The translations under genes and the position numbers were made by a program. From Gammaproteobacteria bacterium (lineage in GTDB: Bacteria; Pseudomonadota; Gammaproteobacteria; Eutrophobiales; Eutrophobiaceae), in the NCBI GenBank assembly GCA_004297165.1, contig SCUJ01000006.1, forward strand, positions 1,488,464 to 1,552,463: a stretch of 64,000 nucleotides of DNA, given 5' to 3'. Position 1 is the stretch's first letter. Each line of letters starts with the position of its first letter. This document shows positions 31,195 to 64,000 of this stretch, piece after piece. Below the pieces are notes generated by a model, which saw only the letters and a list, made by a program, of their open reading frames with translations, was not told where the DNA came from and did no database searches.

Positions 31195-32310
<1,116 letters not shown>

Positions 32311-32489: not shown

Positions 32490-32508
32490 TGTAAGGAATT
32501 TCCTTACA
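32490..32508. promoter_or_regulatory. Perfect 19-bp palindrome TGTAAGGAATTTCCTTACA
   Basis: The arms TGTAAGGAA and TTCCTTACA are exact complements around one T. It lies six bases beyond the end of the PilZ-like gene and 180 bases before fleQ. It is shorter and AT-richer than a terminator stem and lacks a T tract, so an operator is more likely. Similar TGTAA...TTACA repeats occur before the PEP-CTERM gene at 63.7-63.8 kb. Confidence 0.6.
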
Positions 32509-63013: not shown

Positions 63014-63649
63014 CTATTTGCTGACGCCGGGCTTGCGTTTGCGCAGCGCGGCCAGACCTGCGATACCGCCCACGAAGAGCAGGGTCGAGGCCGGTTCCGG
63101 AACGGAGGTCGGACCTGATCCGAACACCAGCGTGGCATTGAAATAGGTGCTCCCGTCAAAAGACAGTCCTTTCCAGTCGAACCAGATCTCGTCCGCGTCA
63201 AAGGAAAGCATCGAGGTATTCCAGCCTGCCATGTTGGTGGCCACACTGACGCTTGTCAGGGGGTTCCCGCTGCTGTCATCCAGATCCGATACGCGAAGTC
63301 CATTGAAGCTTAGGGGCGCAGGTGCGCATGTAAATGGAAACACCGGTTCGCATACGAGTGTGGTATCCCACCACGTACCGCTGACATCATGCAGGTGGGT
63401 ATAGTCGATAAGTATGCTGTCGGCCTCGACATTGACATTGTAGCCCCAGGGATAGGAGCAGTACACAACGGCCAGGTCTGTAGCCCCGGTGACCACGGTC
63501 GTGGGTGAAGGGAATGTGCCGCACATGTAGGAGGGACCCGGCGCGTAATGATCGAGTGAGACTGCATCGCCTACCAGGGTTGCGTTTGCCCCCAGAGGCA
63601 ACACACATAATCCGAGAACCGCCGCAGCGGAGGTAATTATTCTTTTCAT
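63014..63649 (-). CDS. PEP-CTERM sorting domain protein
   Basis: 211 aa. Signal peptide (MKRIITSAAAVLGLCVLPLGANA) and a C-terminal sorting signal VPEPASTLLFVGGIAGLAAL followed by basic RKRK, the exosortase target. In between is a beta-rich domain of unknown type with several cysteines (YMCGTFPS, VYCSYPWG, VCEPVFPFTCA). The exosortase EpsH is not in the window. AGGAAGG lies seven bases before the ATG. A sigma-54 promoter and repeated inverted repeats lie upstream. Confidence 0.92.
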   Translation of the reverse strand: MKRIITSAAAVLGLCVLPLGANATLVGDAVSLDHYAPGPSYMCGTFPSPTTVVTGATDLAVVYCSYPWGYNVNVEADSILIDYTHLHDVSGTWWDTTLVCEPVFPFTCAPAPLSFNGLRVSDLDDSSGNPLTSVSVATNMAGWNTSMLSFDADEIWFDWKGLSFDGSTYFNATLVFGSGPTSVPEPASTLLFVGGIAGLAALRKRKPGVSK

Positions 63650-63693
63650 GTAGCCTTCCTTTATTGTTATGTAATTAAATTAAGGGATCTGAA

Positions 63694-63709
63694 GGCATAT
63701 AACGTGCCA
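63694..63709 (-). promoter_or_regulatory. Sigma-54 promoter for the PEP-CTERM gene
   Basis: Minus strand TGGCACGTTATATGCC: all of the -24 box and GC at -12 with the correct spacing, two mismatches from consensus in the -12 part. It lies 44 bases before the ATG. PEP-CTERM genes under RpoN control are known in other bacteria. Confidence 0.8.
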
Positions 63710-63733
63710 GCAATTTTACTGCGCCTAACTTAC

Positions 63734-63821
63734 TGTAATTCTTACAATTCCAATATAAGTGGTTTTGCCTTGTGTAAGGCAGGGTTTACACTCGCGCTCA
63801 TGATTGTAAGGAATGCTGACA
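63734..63821. promoter_or_regulatory. Three TGTAA...TTACA-type inverted repeats upstream of the sigma-54 site
   Basis: TGTAATTCTTACA at 63734-63746, TGTAAGGCAGGGTTTACA at 63773-63790 and TGTAAGGAATGCTGACA (one mismatch) at 63805-63821. They lie about 40, 80 and 110 bases upstream of the promoter, the place for an enhancer-binding activator. The half-site TGTAAGG(AA) also forms the palindrome before fleQ. Confidence 0.6.
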
Positions 63822-64000
63822 AAGACCCATTGAGTTCATTTCCGTTTCACACCTTGGTCGATTAACAGAGAGTGATCGCGCCAGACCGGAATATAGAACC
63901 GCAACTATTTCACGCTCCGCTAAAAATCATTTCTACGGATTACCCATCGCAGGATGCGCTTGTCCGCTCCCGGACGCTTGTCTATAGTGGATTTTGGCGG
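63822..64000. other. Right edge; no gene recognised
   Basis: Beyond the repeats the last 180 bases contain no frame with a good start and ribosome site. A short GTCCG-n4-CGGAC hairpin is seen at 63962-63975, without a T tract. Confidence 0.5.

Follow-up and report, generated by a model that had tools for sequence, protein, structure and literature searches.

A predicted PEP-CTERM box and sigma-54 promoter arrangement at one more gammaproteobacterial gene, accompanied by two additional palindromes

The closest described system is the one predicted by Haft et al. in 2006 (PMC1569441), in which PEP-CTERM genes are preceded by a 17-nt motif ending in TTTACA and, after a spacer, by a sigma-54 site. 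The motif pair was encountered upstream of 99 out of 167 proteobacterial PEP-CTERM genes, the motif being sometimes repeated, and the spacer was described by its mean and range only (62.8 nt, SD 10.6, range 32-92; PMC1569441). PrsR, PrsK and PrsT shared their phylogenetic profile with the motif, and PrsR was considered its probable binder (PMC1569441). A demonstration of PrsR binding to DNA was not found in the literature searched. A second related case comes from Aquincola tertiaricarbonis RN12, where the -24/-12 promoter of the PEP-CTERM gene pepA has been mapped, depends on RpoN1 and is preceded by a predicted enhancer (PMC9850573). The gene considered here likewise combines a PEP-CTERM product, a -24/-12 promoter and a predicted enhancer upstream; it encodes another protein, and PrsR control is putative in both cases.

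This gene belongs to a 64,000-nt stretch of gammaproteobacterial DNA, referred to as the window, whose numbering is used throughout. Its control region is the known arrangement predicted in 2006, found at one more gene: a 17-nt motif ending in TTACA precedes a -24/-12 site, the PEP-CTERM gene forms a unit of its own behind a long intergenic region, and PrsR, PrsK, an exosortase and an EPS locus are present in the genome. It differs from the described regulon by a spacing of 95 nt, by A instead of G at position 5 of the box, by two added palindromes and by the lack of an IHF-like element at the usual place. The region very probably belongs to the PrsR regulon of the XrtA/PEP-CTERM (exosortase) system and would operate by the mechanism proposed in the last section. 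The features of the locus were as follows.

62989-62959, minus strand: strong Rho-independent terminator-like hairpin of 14 pairs, 3' of the PEP-CTERM gene
63014-63649, minus strand: gene of a 211-aa PEP-CTERM protein (TIGR02595, PF07589) with a signal-peptide-like N-terminus
63654-63660, minus strand: Shine-Dalgarno-like AGGAAGG, read directly
63709-63695, minus strand: sigma-54 -24/-12 promoter TGGCACGTTATATGC (GG-N10-GC)
63734-63746, both strands: additional 13-nt palindrome, TGTAATTCTTACA on the plus and TGTAAGAATTACA on the minus strand, spacer of 3
63773-63790, both strands: additional 18-nt palindrome made of two TTACA half-sites, TGTAAGGCAGGGTTTACA on the plus and TGTAAACCCTGCCTTACA on the minus strand, spacer of 8
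63821-63805, minus strand: PEP-CTERM box (Haft motif 1), probable PrsR site TGTCAGCATTCCTTACA, first rank with the box matrix; also the third repeat, read on the plus strand at 63805-63821 as TGTAAGGAATGCTGACA, spacer of 7, one arm mismatched

The gene, its promoter and its PEP-CTERM box

An earlier, sequence-only reading had proposed that the gene encodes a PEP-CTERM protein, and this was confirmed here by both models, which its product passed with 25.3 bits for TIGR02595 (cut-off 16) and 22.2 bits for PF07589 (cut-off 20.7). The C-terminal sorting signal was VPEPAST...RKRK. The gene is a single-gene unit, and the long intergenic region at its 5' side ends at a divergent gene starting around 64036, just beyond the window.

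The -24/-12 promoter with exact spacing announced by the same reading was present as GG-N10-GC, 46 nt from the ATG of the 211-aa gene, and transcription would start near 63683. Allowing two mismatches, the consensus displayed 66 matches in the 64-kb window and 69 in shuffles; being no commoner than in shuffles, it does not carry the promoter call, which rests on context. RpoN was encoded by a single copy in the genome.

The box was evaluated with a matrix trained exclusively on 16 boxes from the other PEP-CTERM genes of the genome. It ranked first among about 128,000 window positions with 19.7 bits, the next position reaching 10.1 bits; its score borders on the lowest among the training boxes (19.9-29.9 bits). 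This 17-nt box is thus far beyond chance. Its coding-strand reading TGTCAGCATTCCTTACA matters because the other PEP-CTERM genes carry TGTCG-N6-YTTACA upstream, often in two copies about 100 nt apart. Twelve PEP-CTERM genes were recognised in the genome by PF07589 and TIGR02595. The pattern TGTC-N7-YTTACA matched 20 times, versus seven for the control, and 15 of the 20 matches were located directly upstream of ten different PEP-CTERM genes; the remaining two genes displayed box copies with one and two mismatches.

The symmetric form TGTAA...TTACA, put forward earlier as the motif to be searched for, behaved otherwise. TGTAA-N3-9-TTACA occurred at seven places in 3.5 Mb versus 13 for its reversed control, two of the seven lying within 57 bp of each other at 63734-63790. 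None of the other PEP-CTERM loci inspected had it upstream, so that among these PEP-CTERM genes it is confined to the one at 63014-63649. By the refuting condition attached to the earlier proposal, the motif fails, and the symmetric form is therefore not a regulon motif. The region had been singled out correctly, with PrsR among the candidates, but the common denominator of its repeats had been misread: the regulon motif is the box, not the symmetric form.

Only two homologues of the PEP-CTERM protein, with 51-52% identity, were encountered in 53 genomes of the family (G008 and G009), and a scan of the genome collection yielded no closer ones. Neither a box nor a sigma-54 site was seen by eye upstream of these two genes, and control is therefore not conserved with the gene. 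A phylogenetic footprint of the upstream region was impossible owing to this small number, this low identity and the unrelated upstream DNA.

Helical phase and an IHF-like element

In sigma-54 promoters of the NtrC/NifA type, the distant enhancer keeps to one face of the helix and an IHF site is present, for which the consensus is YAANNNNTTGATW. Pairs of box and promoter were frequent in related genomes, with at least 45 among the matches listed for the 53 family genomes (control, 2) and at least 149 among those listed for 369 genomes of the class (control, 2). Spacings from the box end to TGGCAC formed clusters at 51-53, 61-65, 73-76, 85 and 95-97 nt, that is, around 52, 63, 74, 85 and 96. 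For 145 pairs taken from 54 non-family genomes, phase coherence was R 0.64 at a period of 10.5 bp (Rayleigh p ~2e-26), with the caveat that common descent of paralogues limits the independence of the sites. Removal of the main cluster left 75 pairs with R 0.62 (p ~2e-13). The best-fitting period was 11.1, R being nearly flat from 10.75 to 11.25, and pairs from the family were phased as well (p ~3e-8). Box-promoter spacings thus fall on one DNA face across the class. The loci concerned in other genomes were L098-L127, L138-L152 and L153-L192.

At the 63014-63649 gene the box lies 95 nt from TGGCAC, or 93-95 nt depending on where the 17-nt motif 2 is taken to start. As measured in this analysis, the distance slightly exceeds the published 32-92 nt, and spacings of 94-97 nt were uncommon (8 of the 145 class pairs). 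A distance of 95 nt is nevertheless in phase, at about nine helical turns, which would explain how so long a spacing could work.

An element resembling the IHF consensus was found between box and promoter in most of about 85 PrsR promoters sampled (44 from the family and 40 from the class; loci L098-L127 and L138-L192), its match starting 30-33 nt upstream of TGGCAC whatever the spacing of the box. A profile built from the 40 class promoters placed its best match at most two bases from the usual place in 30 of the 44 family promoters, against five expected. The element read TAACNNNTTGATT. Its resemblance to the consensus makes IHF a candidate binder. Most sampled PrsR promoters are in this respect like NtrC/NifA-type promoters, with an enhancer on a fixed helix face and an IHF-consensus element between enhancer and promoter; they differ in the sequence of the enhancer site, and the 63014-63649 gene differs further in that no IHF-like element was found at the usual place of its promoter. 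The best partial match there was 58 nt upstream of TGGCAC and was not judged significant, many offsets having been tried. Phasing and the element at a fixed place are new details on PrsR promoters. Together with the precise box, they provide a direct, falsifiable map for PrsR binding tests in dozens of genomes.

The additional palindromes

The three repeats spanned 25-112 nt upstream of TGGCAC and, as noted before, two of them begin with TGTAAGG. They had been taken for three inverted repeats of one half-site. Repeats of the TGTAA/TTACA type were indeed present, but their spacers (3, 8 and 7) are unequal and one arm of the third is mismatched; with such spacers they are not three copies of one dimer site. 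Three equivalent enhancer copies were rejected on this ground and also because the scores of two repeats fall far short of those of any box. With the word fixed, 4000 shuffles of the region contained no case of two exact TGTAA palindromes; when any half-site word was allowed, two inverted repeats with a common half-site appeared in 4.3% of shuffles, and statistical support for the palindromes is then marginal. Comparable palindromes were found at none of the other promoters examined. The shared PrsR mechanism does not include the two additional palindromes, which may provide further PrsR half-sites, serve a different regulator or have no function.

Neither the 18-mer nor the 13-mer scored as a box. 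The 18-mer reached -8.6 bits or lower, and at most 9.7 bits once one base was removed; it is possibly a damaged or altered second box. PrsR might use the box at 63805-63821 while both palindromes serve as extra PrsR sites or half-sites that compensate for the great distance of the box and for the lack of an IHF-like element, a reading that is tentative and rather unlikely. It is favoured by the composition of both palindromes, whose TTACA units correspond to the half of the box that does not vary, by the position of the 18-mer at 63 nt from TGGCAC, where boxes occur most often, and by the count of five extra half-sites at this gene versus 0.86 expected. The matrix scores of the 18-mer, the lack of such palindromes at every other promoter examined and the marginal shuffle result weigh against it.

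The 13-nt palindrome overlaps the place occupied by the IHF-like element in most other sampled PrsR promoters. It is doubtful that the 63014-63649 promoter represents an IHF-independent PrsR variant, with its enhancer moved out to nine turns and symmetric PrsR half-site palindromes replacing the IHF site in the loop, of a general, previously undescribed three-part layout composed of a box in phase, an IHF site at a constant position and a sigma-54 site.

Operators of an unrelated repressor or activator, acting as a second input to the PEP-CTERM gene or to the divergent gene, constitute another unlikely reading. The palindromes are perfect dyads of unequal lengths, and their location between enhancer and promoter would allow a protein bound there to interfere. 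Against this, neither the 18-mer nor the 13-mer occurred at any second gene in the genome, no cognate regulator was identified, and the closest sigma-70-like site of the divergent gene was about 170 bp off, at chance level.

Candidate activators and the PrsR regulon

The genome displayed PrsR (C2:211899-213233; TIGR02915, 695 bits, cut-off 502.6) and, encoded by the adjoining gene, PrsK (TIGR02916, 711 bits, cut-off 300). Both genes are close to an EPS locus of the XrtA system, which passed the models for the XrtA-type sugar transferase, deacetylase, export protein and ATPase; its exosortase obtained 150.6 with TIGR02602 (cut-off 105.55) and 207.3 with the XrtA model, just below the cut-off of 208. 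The closest PrsR among named genomes was that of an uncultured gammaproteobacterium (82% identity).

Since the gene carries a canonical box and the regulon does not use the symmetric form as its motif, activation is likely to depend on PrsR rather than on FleQ, in an arrangement already known. The operator of a dedicated activator of the PrsR or FleQ type, suggested earlier, is thus supported in part: for PrsR, by its 695 bits and by the canonical box, but not for FleQ. In the mechanism proposed from these sequence features, the histidine kinase PrsK would phosphorylate PrsR, an NtrC-type response regulator, and PrsR would bind the 17-nt box at 63821-63805. The DNA would then loop, PrsR would contact sigma-54 RNA polymerase at 63709-63695 and the promoter would open, so that the PEP-CTERM protein would be made along with the exopolysaccharide it accompanies.

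FleQ was rejected as the regulator. A FleQ-type site is GTCNNTAAANTGAC, and no match to it within two mismatches was found at 63650-63900. The window includes a FleQ-like sigma-54 activator in a flagellar cluster (31195-32310, minus strand), which displayed AAA+ and Fis domains only, without the N-terminal PF06490 receiver domain of FleQ; the family relatives found are open frames of 479-501 aa that match only from query residue 12-28 onward. A perfect 19-bp palindrome, TGTAAGGAAATTCCTTACA, is located upstream of this gene at 32490-32508; the loci retrieved from family relatives did not contain it.

A triple TGTAA...TTACA array serving as the operator of a dedicated non-PrsR activator, whether of the FleQ type or from elsewhere in the NtrC family, is very improbable. 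In its favour, two exact palindromes lie within 57 bp although there are only seven such places in 3.5 Mb, the same half-site builds the perfect palindrome upstream of the FleQ-like gene, and the genome encodes some nine further full-size NtrC-type activators. One dimer would not, however, tolerate the three different spacers, the symmetric form is neither enriched nor present at the other PEP-CTERM promoters examined, the FleQ-like protein lacks the receiver domain, and the palindrome upstream of its gene was not found at the loci of relatives.

PrsR as the activator also agreed with the distribution of boxes among the 53 family genomes: the seven with PrsR averaged 12.1 boxes and the 46 without it 1.8 (Mann-Whitney p 7e-5). 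Exceptions were G052, with 19 boxes and no PrsR found (87% complete), and G008 and G016, with five each. For G052 and G008, in which no PrsR exceeded the cut-off, an incomplete assembly or a diverged activator is possible.

PEP-CTERM proteins and exosortases are tied to the floc and biofilm matrix in environmental bacteria. A PrsR box was also observed at G000:C13:167636-167652 (L034), where a possible sigma-54 site 71 nt downstream is followed by a short ORF of 91 aa; no PEP motif was seen at the C-terminal end of its product, which is possibly a regulon member of another kind.
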